DNA of 64,000 nt from Polynucleobacter sp. (GTDB lineage: Bacteria > Pseudomonadota > Gammaproteobacteria > Burkholderiales > Burkholderiaceae_D). The stretch is from NCBI GenBank assembly GCA_021737945.1, contig JAIPCX010000001.1, positions 1 to 64,000 on the forward strand. The letters are read 5' to 3'. The position numbers were made by a program, and so were the translations under genes. A model generated the notes under the pieces. That model did not search any database. It saw only the letters and a program-made list of their open reading frames with translations, and was not told the origin of the DNA. Positions 15,784 to 46,849 of this stretch are shown here, in pieces. Within the stretch, counting starts at the first letter, position 1; every line of letters begins with the position of its first letter.

Positions 15784-15905
15784 TTGAAAAATCATCATGA
15801 CAAAAAATCAAATCGCAGATTTGATGGGGTAAATTAGCTTTTATTGAATTGAAGTAAGAGAAGGTCATCTTTAGAATGGGCATTATTGCCCTACGCTAAT
15901 ATTTT

Positions 15906-17078
15906 ATGACCTTCCTCGACTTCAAACGTTTCGCCCTCCTCGCAAAAATGACGGGGCTGAGCCTTCTGGTTATCGTAGTCAACGCTAAGATAGCTTCTGC
16001 AGAAGCTTTGGATTCGACTATCAACGAACAAGTCATCATGCTGCCGGTGATTGAACATGGCAACGAATTTCAATTTGAAACCACTATCTTCAAACCACCG
16101 GGGTATGGTCCCTTCCCTCTCTTGCTAATGAATCATGGCAAAGAGATTGGCGATCCTCATAAACAAAAACGTGATCGCTTTCTGGCTATCAGTCGTGAAT
16201 TTGTCAAACGCGGCTACGCGGTTGCCGTACCCATGCGCCGAGGATTTGCCCGATCAACCGGAACCTATACAGATCACGGTTGCAATACGGCTGACAATGG
16301 TCATTTGCAAGCCGATGATATTGAAGCTGCACTCGTCGCATTACTTAAGCAAAACTGGGTTGATCGCGAACGCATCATTATCGGCGGACAATCCTATGGT
16401 GGGCTGGCTGCTATGGCCTTTGGAGTGCGTCAATTTCCGGGGGTACGCGCGTTAATTAATTTTGCGGGTGGACTTCGCGTGGATGGCCGCGGCTGCGACT
16501 GGAAAAATTCGTTGATCAAGGCCTTCGCAAGTTACGCAACCAATACCTCCCTACCCAGCCTCTGGTTTTACGGCGAAAACGATAGTTATTTTGATCATCC
16601 ATTAGCAATGCAATTACTAAACGCCTACCAATCTGCAGCCGTTGTGCCGGAATTATCTGCCTTTGGAAAATTTAAAAATGATGCACATGGCATGGCAGGA
16701 AGTCGCGATGGAGTCGCTATCTGGCTACCAGAAACTGAACGCTTCTTGCAAAGATTAGGCATGCCAACGTCACCAGTCGTTGAAATCGCAGAGATGGCCC
16801 GACCCGCAGCGACTAATTTTTCACCTTTAGAAAATATCGCTGCTGTACCTTACTTATCAAGCGCCGGACGTATGGGCTATCGCGATTACTTGAATAAATC
16901 GTCTCCGCGCGCGTTCGCATTATCAGCATCGGGAAGCTGGAGCTGGGCCTCTGAGGGGGATGATCCCTCCGATCGTGCACTAGTCAGTTGTCAGAAAAAA
17001 AGTGCCGTTCCATGCAGACTTTTTTCCATTGATAATGACATCGTATGGGTCGACTCTATGGCACCCATAGCTAATTAA
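15906..17078 (+). CDS. Exported alpha/beta hydrolase (dienelactone hydrolase-like)
   Basis: A 390-residue protein with a signal peptide (hydrophobic stretch ending IASAEA near residue 33). The catalytic triad is visible: nucleophile Ser in GGQSYGG, Asp in GENDSYFD and His in NDAHGMAG. After the hydrolase domain comes an extra C-terminal domain of about 90 residues containing GRMGYRDYL, FALSASGSWSWASE and a pair of cysteines, ending with DNDIVW. This tail recurs in periplasmic proteins of beta-proteobacteria, but I cannot name its function. The substrate is unknown. Monocistronic; 122 bases after parC. Confidence 0.8.
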   Translation: MTFLDFKRFALLAKMTGLSLLVIVVNAKIASAEALDSTINEQVIMLPVIEHGNEFQFETTIFKPPGYGPFPLLLMNHGKEIGDPHKQKRDRFLAISREFVKRGYAVAVPMRRGFARSTGTYTDHGCNTADNGHLQADDIEAALVALLKQNWVDRERIIIGGQSYGGLAAMAFGVRQFPGVRALINFAGGLRVDGRGCDWKNSLIKAFASYATNTSLPSLWFYGENDSYFDHPLAMQLLNAYQSAAVVPELSAFGKFKNDAHGMAGSRDGVAIWLPETERFLQRLGMPTSPVVEIAEMARPAATNFSPLENIAAVPYLSSAGRMGYRDYLNKSSPRAFALSASGSWSWASEGDDPSDRALVSCQKKSAVPCRLFSIDNDIVWVDSMAPIAN

Positions 17079-41596: not shown

Positions 41597-43177
41597 TCAT
41601 CGTCGATCGATTTGGCGCCAGATTGCACGTTCATCGTCTGTTGCTCGCCCCGGCATATCAAACAGCTCCTGCATCTGTTTTCTGTTACCCTCGGTAGCAA
41701 TTTGCCGCAAATTAGAAATTGTGATCCGAAATTGTTCAAAAGCGATCTCGGGTTTTTCTCGAATAGCCGCAATCGGTAACTGATGTTGACCCATTTCAGC
41801 GCGCTCTTGTTTGACGCGCTCGATCAGCACAATTACCTCTTCTTGAGAGATATGAAGTTCTTGCGCCTCGCGCATTATTTGCTCGTAGTTTTCATCTGAC
41901 AGGCTGCCATCTTTCATGAAGCGCATCAGTTCTGCGTGCATCATCTCGCGATCTTTGTGTAACTGATCATTGAACGCTGTCGATAAGATGGCAGCAGGTA
42001 CGGCGAAGATACCAATACCCACCAGCGCCATAACAATCGTCATCAGACGCCCAACGGGTGTTATCGGTGAAATATCACCATAGCCAACCGAGGCAAGTGT
42101 CACAACCGCCCAATAAATCGATTGCGGGATGTTTTCAAACTTGTCCGGCTGTGCCTCATGTTCGAACAGAAAGCCAAGACTCGCGGTCAAAATCACCAGC
42201 AAAAGCATGATGAAGGTTGATGCGGCAATTACAGGCCACTCACGTCGAAGTGCCTTGACCAGAGTTCCTGTTGAGGTAGTGTAGCGAGTCAGTTTGAGCA
42301 AGCGCATCAATCTGAAAATCCGGAGGAATCTGAGGTCGAAAACCTGATGCAGCATAGTTTCGAGGAAAAAGGGCACGATCGCCAGCAGGTCGATCACAAC
42401 AATCGGCTGACTCGCGAATTCGAAACGTCCACCCAGACCTTTGAATTTCGGGTCTTCGGTGCAGGAATACAGTCGCAAAATATATTCGAGAGAAAAAATG
42501 AAAACAGCAATCGCATCCAGAACGATAAACTGAACATTCAGTATGTAATGAATTGATGCGACCGACTCCAAAATGACCGCCATCACTGAGATGAATACCC
42601 ACCAAACGATGAAACTATCAAGCAACTCTTGCAGCTTGCCACTGGTGGATGTCGGATTTAGTAAGGCATAGACTTGCTGTCTGAAAGTGCTCCCTTGGTT
42701 AAGTTGACGAAACTCCTGAACCGCAGGAACCAAAATACGGAATAACTTCAGCAGTCGAAGTAGCCGCAGCGTACGCAGCATACGCAGATCCATTGCAATG
42801 AAAGAGCTCAGATAGAACGGCAGAATTGCAGCCAAATCGATTAATGCATACAGACTAAAAATGTAGCGTAACCGAGGGAATCTTGATTTACCAAATTCTG
42901 AATCTTCCGGGGCGACATACAATCGTAATAAATACTCAATCGTGAAAACTGCTAGTGAAAATTGATCGAATACATGAAAAAGGAATTTGTTCGGCTCATA
43001 AATCGCAGGAATGTGCTCAGTCAGCATCCCGATCAAGTTCGCTATGATCAAGATAGAAATCCACTTATCAAACTCGCGCTGCAAGTTGTTGGGATTGGAC
43101 TGGTCAAACATCCAAGCGTAAATAAAACTACGCAGCGTTACCTCACGCGAGGCATAGTTTTCGAATGTTGCGGACAT
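41597..43177 (-). CDS. Ion channel with two tandem voltage-sensor modules and one K+-type pore
   Basis: A 526-residue membrane protein (numbering from the Met at 43177). The first module (residues about 35-150) has four helices and an S4 with charges every third residue: R132, R135, R138, R141, K144, R147. A second module (about 185-300) repeats this with R283, R286, R289, R292, K295, R298. Only then comes a single pore: a helix, the filter TLASVGYGD at 360-368 and a final helix. The filter predicts K+ selectivity. A charged helical tail of about 120 residues follows. The start at 43177 has a good ribosome site (GGGAAGGCAG); an upstream Met at 43237 would add 20 residues and overlap the preceding gene. 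Two sensors with one pore is an uncommon order. Confidence 0.85.
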   Translation of the reverse strand: MSATFENYASREVTLRSFIYAWMFDQSNPNNLQREFDKWISILIIANLIGMLTEHIPAIYEPNKFLFHVFDQFSLAVFTIEYLLRLYVAPEDSEFGKSRFPRLRYIFSLYALIDLAAILPFYLSSFIAMDLRMLRTLRLLRLLKLFRILVPAVQEFRQLNQGSTFRQQVYALLNPTSTSGKLQELLDSFIVWWVFISVMAVILESVASIHYILNVQFIVLDAIAVFIFSLEYILRLYSCTEDPKFKGLGGRFEFASQPIVVIDLLAIVPFFLETMLHQVFDLRFLRIFRLMRLLKLTRYTTSTGTLVKALRREWPVIAASTFIMLLLVILTASLGFLFEHEAQPDKFENIPQSIYWAVVTLASVGYGDISPITPVGRLMTIVMALVGIGIFAVPAAILSTAFNDQLHKDREMMHAELMRFMKDGSLSDENYEQIMREAQELHISQEEVIVLIERVKQERAEMGQHQLPIAAIREKPEIAFEQFRITISNLRQIATEGNRKQMQELFDMPGRATDDERAIWRQIDRR

Positions 43178-43214: not shown

Positions 43215-43778
43215 TCAGAATGTGAATTCTGCGACATGGATCACGGAAAATCCTCGTCCGCAAATCGACAGTCTTAGTGGGATTGGCGCACCAAGTGGCT
43301 CAAGGTCCGACAAAGGCGCATACATCAGACTTGCGCCATCGGGAGGCTTGGGGGTGCCTTTTTCGAAAATGATTGATCCGAGCGTATCAAGTTGCGTTCG
43401 GTCGCAGGCTGGGCTGAAGAGCTTATTGCCACGACTTATCTCGTTATTAAGGCCTTTTAATGGTCCGCTTGAGCTGACTAGCCATTCACGGCAGTCGAAC
43501 CAGTTTTTTGTTTCGCCGCTGCACTCATGCGTCGAGCTTTCACCAGCAGACGCACGTTTGGATGCCTCATCCGTCATCAAGCTGACAATCGATTCGCCAG
43601 TCAATTTTGCCGACTCAGTGTGTCGACCTTCAACCCATGTTGAATAGCCTAACTGAACAATGCCGATTCCTAAGGCGCAAGCGATGACTACGAAAAAAAA
43701 GTCGCTCAACGAAAAGTAGGGTCTGTTGTTCTCGCTGTGTTTAGTGCTCGATGTCTGTTCAAGCTTCTCAGTGTTCAT
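43215..43778 (-). CDS. Single-helix membrane protein with cysteine-containing extracytoplasmic domain
   Basis: A 187-residue protein I do not recognise. Residues 1-20 are polar, residues about 23-46 form one helix (LSDFFFVVIACALGIGIVQLGY), and the rest is a periplasmic domain with four cysteines (in HECSG, WFDCREW, SPACDR and LSICGRG), possibly two disulfides. It ends GRGFSVIHVAEFTF. A strong ribosome site (AAGGGGAAAG) supports the start at 43778; an upstream in-frame start lies in an AT-rich region. It is 37 bases upstream of the channel on the same strand and probably its partner. The topology is like an auxiliary subunit, but that is inference. Confidence 0.75.
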   Translation of the reverse strand: MNTEKLEQTSSTKHSENNRPYFSLSDFFFVVIACALGIGIVQLGYSTWVEGRHTESAKLTGESIVSLMTDEASKRASAGESSTHECSGETKNWFDCREWLVSSSGPLKGLNNEISRGNKLFSPACDRTQLDTLGSIIFEKGTPKPPDGASLMYAPLSDLEPLGAPIPLRLSICGRGFSVIHVAEFTF

Positions 43779-44019
43779 GAATCTTTCCCCTTCAGTAGAC
43801 CATCTTTGAAAAATATTTTTTGACTGATATTTTTCTACTGATATTTTTCTTCGAAGAAAATCATGCACTAAAATTTTTCGAAAGCCAATGATTTACGATA
43901 TAAAATTTTAATTCAATGTTAATCAATTAATTTATAAACGGATTTTTTACGGATACTTTATGGAACTCTAATTAAATACTTATGCTTTCCTTATATTTGC
44001 AGGTGCAGACTCTTCAATC

Positions 44020-44430
44020 ATGACTAGCGACAACAGAAAGCTGCGACTGGATTTTGCGAGAAGACTCATTGAGGCACTCATATTTGCCGGTCTTGATGAC
44101 AGACCAACCACGCTTGCTCGTCACTTCAACACGAATAGCTACGGCATGGTTATCACTATGCATGGAGCGAGGCGTTGGTTGATTGGCGATTCGTTTCCAA
44201 CGCAGAGTCATTTGAATGCGCTAGCAAGCTTGCTAGGCGTATCTTCGGCTTGGCTCTTACTGGGACAGGGACCAATGCTAGAGGAAGCGGTTTCTGTCGA
44301 CGCAGTTCCGGCATCAAACAGTAATCTCGGAGAGGTTCTCGGTATCTTTCAGTCGTTGAAGGATTCAGAGCGGCAGCTTGTCTTGAACCTCATGATGACA
44401 TTGAACAGATCCCACAGTCACTCAACTTAA
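44020..44430 (+). CDS. HTH (XRE/phage repressor-like) regulator
   Basis: A 136-residue protein with an N-terminal helix-turn-helix: FARRLIEALIFAGLDDRPTTLARHFN followed by RRWLIGDSFPTQSHLNALASLLGVSSAWLLLGQG. The 'A.WLLLG.GP' ending of the HTH region is typical of short phage CI-like or plasmid regulators. The C-terminal part is a polar linker and a helix, DSERQLVLNLMMTL. It is divergent from the channel operon and precedes the two-component system by 134 bases, so it could control either. Confidence 0.75.
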   Translation: MTSDNRKLRLDFARRLIEALIFAGLDDRPTTLARHFNTNSYGMVITMHGARRWLIGDSFPTQSHLNALASLLGVSSAWLLLGQGPMLEEAVSVDAVPASNSNLGEVLGIFQSLKDSERQLVLNLMMTLNRSHSHST

Positions 44431-44564: not shown

Positions 44565-46133
44565 ATGCCAAGTCAAGTAAACCGAGCCCTTCCTTTTCGT
44601 GAGCGCCACTGGTATGGCATTCTGGTCTGGATAATGGCCTGGTCATTGATGTGGTGGCTGGACGGGGATTTCGTGTTTCAGAACTTAGCCTTGATACTGG
44701 TGCTCGCAAGTGCAGTTGCGGGTCTTTGGATAGGCCCGCTAACTTCACTACTCATCAACACCTTATCGATTTTCTACTTCAGCTATTTTTTTGTTAATCC
44801 TCGCCTCTCGTTCACGCCCGCGTTGCGCGAGGATCTAATGTTACTAGTCTCTGTATACGGTGTCAGCATCGTTATAAGCTATTTGACGGTGCGATTACGT
44901 AGGGCCGTGACTAGCGAGGCATTACAAGCAGCTCGTACCAGCCAATTACGCTTACTGAGTGAGCAGTTGCGTGAGGCTACCGGGTGGTTAGCGAAGGTCG
45001 ATGTCCTGCGCAAGCTACTCGCTGACCATGCAGGTGTACCTGCCTATATCCTGCTAACCCGCTCACAGCTGGCGGTCTGCGATGGTCATCAGTTTGAATT
45101 TTTTGGTGAGCCCTCTCCGTTTCAGAAGCAGCGATTGATCTTGGAATGGAAACCATTCTCTGTCGATCCATCCACGCTATCGAAAGCGGATGACTCAGCG
45201 CGTGCGATTCCCATTCGTGGTCGAGAGAAGACTTGGGGGGTGGTCGTGTTTCATGATGGCTTCGAGCCTTCGACGGATTGGTTGGGATACCCGCACTTCC
45301 GCGATTTATGTTACCAGCTAGGCATAGAACTCGAGCGGTACATAGCGCTTGTTCAGGCGCGTGAGGCTAACGAGCAAGTGCGAACGCAAGCTATCCGGAA
45401 TACCTTGCTTACGGCAATTTCGCATGATTATCATACCCCATTGTCGACTATCATGGGTGCCGCGTCGGTCCTAGTCGAACAGACTAAAGGGGATCGGCAT
45501 GCTGAGTTCGCCGGGTTGGCTAGCACCATCGTGGAAGAAACTGAGCAGCTCCATCGCATGACGAATAACACACTGCAGATGGCGCGATTAGATGCGGTCG
45601 GTATTGAACTCAATAAAAATTGGGAATCACTAGAGGAGATAATTGGAACGGTGATCGCGCGTATAAAACGTCGCTGCTCTGATCGACAATTTATTGTTCA
45701 TCTGCCGCCCGATTTGCCTCTCTTGCATGTTGATGTTGTCTTGCTGATGCAATTGCTGGATAACGTGTTGCAGAACAGTTTGAAATATAGTCGCGATGAA
45801 TCTGTCATCACGATCGATGCGGTCAGCGCTGATCATGAAGTGTTTATACGGCTGTCTGACTGTGGCGAAGGTATCCCCGGATGGTGGCATGAAAAGGTGT
45901 TCGAAATATTCCAGCGAGTGGATGGCGTTGATCTTCCCTCTGACGGTCGAACTGGACGACAGCCACGTCGTGGTGCAGGCGTAGGCCTGGCAGTATGCCG
46001 CGCAATTGCGCGAGTACATGGAGGCAGAATCTGGATAGAAGATAATCCAGGCGGAGGTACTCGCGTGAACATTGCATTGCCCATTGGCGCGCCACCCGCG
46101 CTGCCATTGTCCGCGTCAGAGGAGTTAACGTAA
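44565..46133 (+). CDS. KdpD-like sensor histidine kinase lacking the N-terminal KdpD domain
   Basis: A 522-residue kinase. It has four membrane helices (residues about 17-110) of the DUF4118 type, a GAF-like segment (130-260), the phospho-acceptor His287 in LLTAISHDYHTPLS, the N box QLLDNVLQNSLKYS, and G boxes DCGEGIPGW and GVGLAVCRAIARVHGGRIW. This matches the C-terminal two thirds of KdpD. The KdpD/UspA sensor region of about 370 residues in front of the helices is missing. It overlaps the regulator gene by one base (TAATG). The K+ pump genes kdpFABC are not nearby. Confidence 0.88.
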   Translation: MPSQVNRALPFRERHWYGILVWIMAWSLMWWLDGDFVFQNLALILVLASAVAGLWIGPLTSLLINTLSIFYFSYFFVNPRLSFTPALREDLMLLVSVYGVSIVISYLTVRLRRAVTSEALQAARTSQLRLLSEQLREATGWLAKVDVLRKLLADHAGVPAYILLTRSQLAVCDGHQFEFFGEPSPFQKQRLILEWKPFSVDPSTLSKADDSARAIPIRGREKTWGVVVFHDGFEPSTDWLGYPHFRDLCYQLGIELERYIALVQAREANEQVRTQAIRNTLLTAISHDYHTPLSTIMGAASVLVEQTKGDRHAEFAGLASTIVEETEQLHRMTNNTLQMARLDAVGIELNKNWESLEEIIGTVIARIKRRCSDRQFIVHLPPDLPLLHVDVVLLMQLLDNVLQNSLKYSRDESVITIDAVSADHEVFIRLSDCGEGIPGWWHEKVFEIFQRVDGVDLPSDGRTGRQPRRGAGVGLAVCRAIARVHGGRIWIEDNPGGGTRVNIALPIGAPPALPLSASEELT

Positions 46134-46849
46134 TGGCTGGCCAAGTGCTTTTAGTCGAGGATGATCGGTCATTAAGGCAGACGCTGACCAAAGCCCTTGA
46201 ACTGGGTGGCTACCGCGTTGTACAGGCCGAGTCGATCGCGGAGGGAACGCTAAGCTTCAGTACTATGATCAATCGATCCGATTCTGAGGCCATAAAGTTG
46301 ATAATCGTTGATCTGGGCTTGCCAGATGGCGACGGTGCCAGTCTGATTCGCTGGGTGCGTACGCAATCGTCGGTACCCCTGATCATCATATCGGCACGAT
46401 ACGACGACAATAGCAAAGTGAATCTGCTGGATGCAGGCGCTGATGATTATCTAGTCAAGCCGTTTAGTTTTACGGAATTGATGGCAAGGATTCGGGTCGC
46501 GATGCGGCATCGACACCAAGATGAAAATCCCGCCCCCAGAATTTACAGGGCATCGGGCATTGAAATCGATTTGCAGCGCCATCAGGTCATCCGGCATGGC
46601 GAGCGGGTACGCTTGACTCCCACCGAGTTCAAATTGCTCGAGCGATTAATGCTGCAGTCAGGTCAGGTAGTTACGCATCGCCAATTACTAGCGGATGTTT
46701 GGGGTGCAGAATTCGTTGAGCACACACATTACCTCAGGCTATACATGGCACAGCTACGCAACAAACTTGAAGAAGTTCCCTCGCAGCCGAAACTACTGAT
46801 CACCGAGCCAGGGATAGGATACAGGTTAAGCGAGGCCGAGCCTATCTGA
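46133..46849 (+). CDS. KdpE-like OmpR-family response regulator
   Basis: A 238-residue regulator. The receiver has the acidic pocket VEDD at 9-11, the phospho-acceptor Asp60 in IIVDLGLPDGDG and Lys109 in YLVKPFSF. The C-terminal winged helix (RLTPTEFKLLERLMLQSGQVVTHRQLL and HTHYLRLYMAQLRNKLE) is of the KdpE type. It is translationally coupled to the kinase gene. Its targets are not evident; the channel operon 1 kb upstream is an attractive candidate but has no recognisable site. Confidence 0.92.
   Translation: MAGQVLLVEDDRSLRQTLTKALELGGYRVVQAESIAEGTLSFSTMINRSDSEAIKLIIVDLGLPDGDGASLIRWVRTQSSVPLIIISARYDDNSKVNLLDAGADDYLVKPFSFTELMARIRVAMRHRHQDENPAPRIYRASGIEIDLQRHQVIRHGERVRLTPTEFKLLERLMLQSGQVVTHRQLLADVWGAEFVEHTHYLRLYMAQLRNKLEEVPSQPKLLITEPGIGYRLSEAEPI

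Follow-up and report, generated by a model that had tools for sequence, protein, structure and literature searches.

A putative potassium channel subunit with two voltage sensors, one pore and a conserved partner gene in Polynucleobacter

Introduction

A central question in the physics of ion channels is how voltage sensors add up and couple to a pore. To our knowledge, nearly all work on it has used channels in which each pore domain has a single sensor. The locus considered here lies in a stretch of 64,000 nucleotides from Polynucleobacter sp. (GenBank assembly GCA_021737945.1, contig JAIPCX010000001.1, positions 1 to 64,000; hereafter the window), which carries at 41597..43177 a gene for a predicted K+ channel subunit. 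An original prediction, made from the sequence alone, gave these coordinates correctly but no strand, which is the minus strand. The prediction contained neither the conserved partner gene nor the spread of the family, both of which were found here. With a probability of about 0.6, we read the protein as a K+-selective, voltage-gated subunit with two sensors in series, the first of which modulates, and which acts together with a partner in the group of relatives that includes the window channel (class I).

Architecture of the channel subunit

The gene and the parts of its product were placed as follows (S1 to S6, transmembrane segments; P, pore helix).
41597..43177, minus strand: gene for the tandem-sensor K+ channel subunit, 526 amino acids plus stop
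42728..43072, minus strand: voltage-sensor domain 1 (residues 36-150), from Pfam and PDB matches and model helices
42731..42790, minus strand: S4 of sensor 1 (residues 130-149), six charges, found in 87/87 class I rows
42623..42727, minus strand: linker between the sensors (residues 151-185), probably cytoplasmic, 56% mean identity in class I
42275..42622, minus strand: voltage-sensor domain 2 (residues 186-301)
42281..42337, minus strand: S4 of sensor 2 (residues 281-299), six charges, from the charge counts in class I rows
41948..42274, minus strand: S4-S5 linker, S5, pore helix, filter and S6 (residues 302-410), from Ion_trans_2
42074..42100, minus strand: selectivity filter TLASVGYGD (residues 360-368), with G-Y-G-D in 87/87 class I rows
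41600..41947, minus strand: C-terminal helical region (residues 411-526), probably cytoplasmic, weakly TerB-like in some relatives

An alternative in-frame ATG at 43237 is possible and would give a channel of 546 amino acids. However, in the relative L007, which is 91% identical to the window channel, the first start codon of the frame yields 526 residues, and the partner frame of the window ends at 43215.

Two four-helix modules, each with an S4 of the pattern R,R,R,R,K,R and followed by a single filter, had been predicted, and each of these elements was recovered. The S4 segments span residues 132-147 (RMLRTLRLLRLLKLFR) and 283-298 (RFLRIFRLMRLLKLTR), with one charge at every third residue. 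Of 20,000 shuffles of the channel protein, 5 gave at least one six-charge run of this kind; the real protein has two. Hydropathy yielded eight hydrophobic segments (40-58, 66-84, 111-129, 185-203, 212-230, 258-276, 316-334 and 380-398), corresponding to S1-S3 twice, S5 and S6; the S4s, the pore helix and the S4-S5 helix were placed with the help of the charge runs and the AlphaFold model. The monomer model contains four helices for each sensor module (33-53, 64-91, 109-126 and 131-159 in sensor 1) and a helix at 165-173 in the linker between them.

Each module, taken alone, matches the Pfam domain Ion_trans. Residues 1-160 reach 55.9 bits (cut-off 25) over the sensor part only (profile positions 4-112 of 241), and among PDB entries they match the sensors of voltage-gated Na+ (Nav) channels and of Kv4, a voltage-gated K+ (Kv) channel, with E about 3e-6 to 4e-6. 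The first module is thus a voltage sensor by both sequence and helix pattern. The profiles of the two sensors align with 99.8% probability and 35% identity. The pore domain Ion_trans_2 matches a single stretch (residues 324-401, 62.5 bits), and no second pore was found in the window channel by Ion_trans on residues 1-160 or by the Ion_trans_2 scan. The NCBIfam model K_channel_Meth (NF040645) gives 63.5 bits, under its curated cut-off of 300 bits. In a fold search with the whole model, sensor 1 is not prominent, the list being taken up by matches to sensor 2 and the pore (no search of sensor 1 alone was made). TerB was matched by the C-terminal region of 3/49 aligned members (best E 3.5e-4) and not, in Pfam, by the window channel itself.

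A tandem fusion of this kind is unusual, and one might suspect that assembly or gene calling had run two genes together. We give this explanation next to no weight, since the same architecture is encoded in one open frame at 80/80 loci of other assemblies (L056 and L075 being truncated at a contig end) as well as in further genomes of the genus. These loci, together with the shuffles, rule out artefact and chance. A subunit with two sensors and one pore, as originally proposed, is supported by domain searches, by the helix pattern of the model and by conservation across many genomes, and neither of the two outcomes named beforehand as refuting it occurred.

Conservation of the two sensors

Relatives were collected by a search of public genome contigs, of which the best 80 of 157 loci were kept, and genes were counted by six-frame open reading frame (ORF) analysis. 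Class I comprises 87 rows including the window (85 distinct, with L127 and L128 as cut copies), class II 20 rows (19 distinct) and the six-transmembrane (6TM) channels 81 rows (79 distinct); residue counts are given per row. Near-copies remain among them: grouping by a shared stretch of 120 residues leaves 74 class I members, 68 of them with the partner. Alignment A1 comprises 49 of 82 rows, thinning at 85% identity having left 50, from which the long-tailed L078 was dropped.

In sensor 1, R132, R135, R138, R141, K144 and R147 are each present in 87/87 class I rows. The same holds for R283, R286, R289, R292 and K295 of sensor 2; at position 298, 83 rows have R and 4 have K. Phe and Glu of S2 and Asp of S3 (F78/E81/D114 in sensor 1, F228/E231/D263 in sensor 2) are likewise found in 87/87 rows. 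By their spacing, we equate these residues of both sensors with the charge-transfer set of Kv channels, to which they would correspond. In Kv1.2, this set consists of F233, E226 and D259, as stated in a review (PMC13095418). The filter sequence is T-L-A-S-V-G-Y-G-D; 5/87 rows have I in place of V and 1/87 has G in place of A, position 361 having been counted separately. Mean identity in class I is 61% for sensor 1, 66% for sensor 2, 80% for the pore and 39% for the C-terminal region.

The near-invariance of S4 charges and charge-transfer residues makes it probable, as far as sequence can tell, that both sensors are functional. Alternatively, sensor 1 might be a structural or docking module, serving assembly or the partner without sensing voltage, and only sensor 2 would gate the pore. 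No coupling of sensor 1 to the pore has been seen, the module lacks an S5 of its own and changes slightly faster than sensor 2 in class I, and a relative from Gemmobacter (described below) retains it with fewer charges. But identity of all six S4 charges and of the S2 Phe/Glu and S3 Asp throughout class I is unexpected for a scaffold, and we consider this alternative unlikely.

The partner gene

A second gene accompanies the channel gene at most class I loci.
43215..43778, minus strand: partner gene, 187 amino acids, one probable membrane helix, four invariant cysteines, directly upstream of the channel gene

Its open frame extends to a GTG at 43868. The model of the protein (mean predicted local distance difference test score, pLDDT, 90.6) combines a long helix (residues 24-77), within which the membrane span is taken to lie, with a domain of four strands. 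Alignment A2 holds 39 partner sequences, obtained from 43 references plus the window after removal of five short or N-terminally truncated ones. The four cysteines C86, C96, C125 and C173 do not vary across these, and neither do D26, G44, W93, N112 and G134. The cysteine-bearing domain is probably periplasmic, and its cysteines may pair. For the partner encoded in the window, searches of Pfam (at E 0.1) and NCBIfam (at 0.001) gave no match; the 39 members searched against Pfam gave eight hits, each from a single member (best E 0.011). A fold search listed no clear relative, and absence from its list excludes nothing.

By profile search, the partner adjoins 79/87 class I rows, or 77/85 distinct ones. 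Eight class I genes lack it: four begin at a contig end (L018, L056, L062 and L080), two have less than 800 bases upstream (L064 and L070), and two lack it despite more than 4 kb upstream (L075 and L125). It was found beside 0/19 distinct class II genes, 0/4 one-sensor relatives and 0/79 distinct 6TM ORFs, types A and B (see below) included. In the genus sample (21 genomes), the six genomes with a partner are the same six that carry a class I gene. In the order sample (398 genomes), the partner was matched in five genomes. Four of them (G000, G502, G626 and G651) are the carriers of a full-length two-sensor gene, and the match in the fifth (G567) is marginal, with E 1.7e-5 over a partial profile. 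Strong genetic evidence thus suggests that channel and partner act jointly, and the partner may be a dedicated auxiliary, beta-like subunit.

Comparison with known channels

Relative to Kv-type channels (KCNQ/Kv7, Kv4, Kv2 and Kv1), the window channel has an extra complete sensor in front of the usual unit. It shares with the Kv superfamily S1-S4 with spaced S4 charges, the charge-transfer Phe/Glu/Asp (here in both sensors) and an S5-P-S6 pore with a GYGD K+ filter; it departs from the rule of one sensor per pore subunit. The residue before VGYG is Ser in 87/87 class I rows. Many Kv channels have Thr at this place, and hERG has Ser. Ordinary 6TM channels from other genomes of the phylum (for example L104, L110 and L115) align with sensor 2, the pore and the start of the C-terminal region; they have one sensor, a TTVGYGD-type filter and no partner gene. 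The one-sensor relatives L119, L121, L095/L122 and L123 share the filter and the C-terminal region with the window channel but have neither sensor 1 nor partner.

Auxiliary subunits of K+ channels include KCNE and BK beta. The partner resembles them as a small membrane protein with a genetic link to a K+ channel, and differs from them in its four invariant cysteines, its helix-plus-sheet model and its lack of domain matches. Hv1 proton channels have an S4 signature with Trp between the arginines and no pore domain. Sensor 1, a sensor fold without a pore of its own, resembles Hv1 in outline and might itself be an ion pathway fused to a K+ channel. However, its S4 charge repeat contains no tryptophan, its Phe/Glu/Asp set is Kv-like and it precedes a K+ pore, so that this reading appears very improbable.

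Two-pore channels carry two sensors in one chain, according to the review cited above (PMC13095418), as does the window channel; they consist of two 6TM repeats, each with a pore, whereas the window channel has one pore. The section list of that review names no architecture with two sensors and one pore. Nor was such a channel found described in the titles and abstract openings of the open-access literature, a search that did not cover subscription papers and preprints. Each part of the channel has a known fold; the 2:1 arrangement with a tied partner could not be placed among known systems.

Class II, one-sensor relatives and the origin of sensor 1

The genome from which the window derives has a second two-sensor copy on contig C36, 42% identical to the window channel and assigned to class II. 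Profile scores are about 412-676 for class II versus 763-943 for class I. Class II keeps the charge-transfer residues and has Q at the last S4 position of sensor 1 in 8/20 rows. In class II rows such as L129 and L132, this S4 is one turn longer with a Glu in front, so that the class II count for R132 depends on gap placement. Three class II sequences (L030, L144 and L145) are cut or broken; the gene at L144:2850-4516 (genome G249) is split into two frames, by possible decay or assembly error. The one-sensor relatives are open frames of 396-465 amino acids with the filter TLASVGYGD and the same C-terminal tail.

Sensor 1 had been proposed to stem from duplication of a sensor. A tree was calculated from 106 sensors, taken from 26 two-sensor rows (thinned at 68%, with added paralogues) and 54 single-sensor rows; few columns and long branches limit it. 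Sensor 1 forms one clade (100/95), as does sensor 2 (99/95), and in the free tree sensor 2 groups with the sensors of L119, L121 and L122 (99/92) to the exclusion of sensor 1. This topology would favour fusion of a foreign sensor. However, a single clade of sensor 1 and sensor 2 was not rejected by the approximately unbiased test (p 0.378), and a constraint uniting both with the one-sensor relatives scored better than the free tree. Duplication is thus allowed by the test, although the free tree sets sensor 1 apart. The one-sensor forms may be either ancestral or the product of later loss.

Distribution

For the genome searches, 3 to 5 candidates were scored per genome with limits from E 1e-60 to 1e-40, weaker relatives falling outside. 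At the level of the family (A1 profile, E 1e-60), 20/294 genomes from 2/44 genera matched, 19 of them in the genus of the window. The matches include a one-sensor match only (G122) and a cut piece only (G236, residues 4-189). One of 21 otherwise good genomes of the genus (G004) lacks a two-sensor gene. In the order (E 1e-50), 12/399 genomes matched, with full length only in G000, G502, G626 and G651. In the class (369 genomes, E 1e-50) and the phylum (398 genomes, E 1e-40), full-length matches came only from the order, and matches from outside it lay within about residues 120-480, that is, one sensor and the pore.

By their titles, the best 80 of 157 loci come mostly from Burkholderiales, chiefly metagenome-assembled genomes, with Oxalobacteraceae, Comamonadaceae, Limnohabitans and Polynucleobacter among the names. 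Odd labels (Beijerinckiaceae, two; Thermoflexus, two from one bin; Bordetella parapertussis, one) may reflect mislabelled bins. Genus names and isolate titles point to small, mostly freshwater bacteria as hosts. Three relatives were found in IMG/VR, one of which (L153, 59%) is of the tandem kind.

A plasmid search matched 18 records, none covering 80% of the query in one place. The best match is a protein of 491 amino acids with two sensors and one pore (WP_159082572.1, L156:2707-4182, annotated 'ion transporter') on plasmid NZ_CP028919.1 of Gemmobacter aquarius, a freshwater alphaproteobacterium, with 40% identity over residues 70-415. This relative, a clear outsider with depleted charges in both S4s, shows that the architecture is older or more mobile than the sample suggests and that its charges can decay.

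Proposed mode of action

Sensor 2 with S5-P-S6 is an ordinary Kv-type unit. By homology and fold, four subunits would form one K+ pore, which sensor 2 would open via its S4-S5 linker; a tetramer with eight sensors would follow from the homology to Kv channels. Sensor 1, fused in front of sensor 2 by a short linker, keeps the residues that a moving S4 needs and for this reason most likely moves a charge of its own. It most likely also modulates sensor 2 or the pore, for which a route via the conserved linker is a guess; this route, the direction of gating and the role of the partner are the least certain points. Eight sensors could make the voltage response steeper or two-step, and in class I the co-encoded partner would serve as a single-span auxiliary subunit. 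Such a channel would probably serve small freshwater bacteria in regulating K+ flux and membrane potential. A more specific version, with eight working sensors, sensor 1 acting on sensor 2 via the linker and the partner tuning this to the periplasm, is held tentatively and seems to us somewhat less probable than not; the double reading of voltage might then provide coincidence detection, steepness or a shifted window.

Several observations weigh against the series arrangement with a modulating sensor 1 and a partner. Conservation of the charges is no proof that sensor 1 is coupled to the pore. In the monomer model (predicted template modelling score 0.53), the pore part is of poor quality (block pLDDT 43-57). 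In the Gemmobacter protein, R132, K144, R147, R283 and R286 are replaced by G, S, H, A and P, respectively, and F78 by L. The partner is absent from class II, and it was not found on the Gemmobacter plasmid (the search, made without a positive control, covered the plasmid and not the chromosome); the two-sensor architecture therefore does not need it. Mirror-tree correlations between the partner and parts of the channel (0.47-0.74) indicated no contact site, and residues specific to class I, taken as markers of a partner site, amounted to only four scattered columns.

One-sensor relatives, tandem channels without partner, tandem channels with partner and a tandem channel with depleted charges form a natural series. 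Such a channel and its relatives would let one test whether doubled sensors mean doubled gating charge, and whether a sensor without its own S4-S5 linker can act on a pore. If both sensors work, a channel would have eight sensors instead of four; the partner, if it binds, would represent an auxiliary subunit of bacterial origin for a voltage-gated channel.

Neighbouring genes and other channels

Three genes are divergent from the partner gene. They encode a DicA-like protein (44020-44430; 27.3 bits against a cut-off of 101), a short KdpD-like kinase with DUF4118, HisKA and HATPase domains (for KdpD, 196 bits against a cut-off of 1123) and a KdpE-like regulator (243.7 bits against a cut-off of 325). 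The latter two occupy 44565-46849 on the other strand, starting about 1.4 kb from the start of the channel gene, and hint at K+ homeostasis. A promoter scan found seven promoter-like sites (shuffle mean 5.1, sd 2.0) and a terminator scan one terminator-like site (shuffle mean 3.9).

Two types of 6TM protein, A and B, have a filter that is one residue short and ends in Asn. Among the 81 6TM rows, short filters read TITS-GYGN in 23 and TIIS-GWGN in 21, plus three variants. A and/or B lie within 2.5 kb downstream in 13/58 class I genes (those with at least 2.5 kb downstream), and several of these loci are a tight run of two-sensor gene, A and B; in class II of the own genus, A and/or B are nearby in 10 loci. 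The loci are as follows.
A/B downstream of class I genes: L018-L021, L023, L028, L030-L032, L035, L037 and L073
Single A or spaced pairs downstream of class I genes: L008, L013 and L015

Such runs could mean that the channel is mainly part of a heteromer with A and B, its working pore being other than a homotetramer. However, no other channel lies within 2.5 kb downstream in 45/58 class I genes, and A and B of the own genome (L087:8239-9177 and 15871-16785) accompany the class II copy on contig C36 and not the window gene; we regard a heteromer as decidedly improbable. At L100, A and B stand without a tandem-sensor gene in the stretch examined. On contig C36 (L087), B, the class II channel, a channel with the filter TITTVGFGD and A lie within about 9 kb (28-37 kb).
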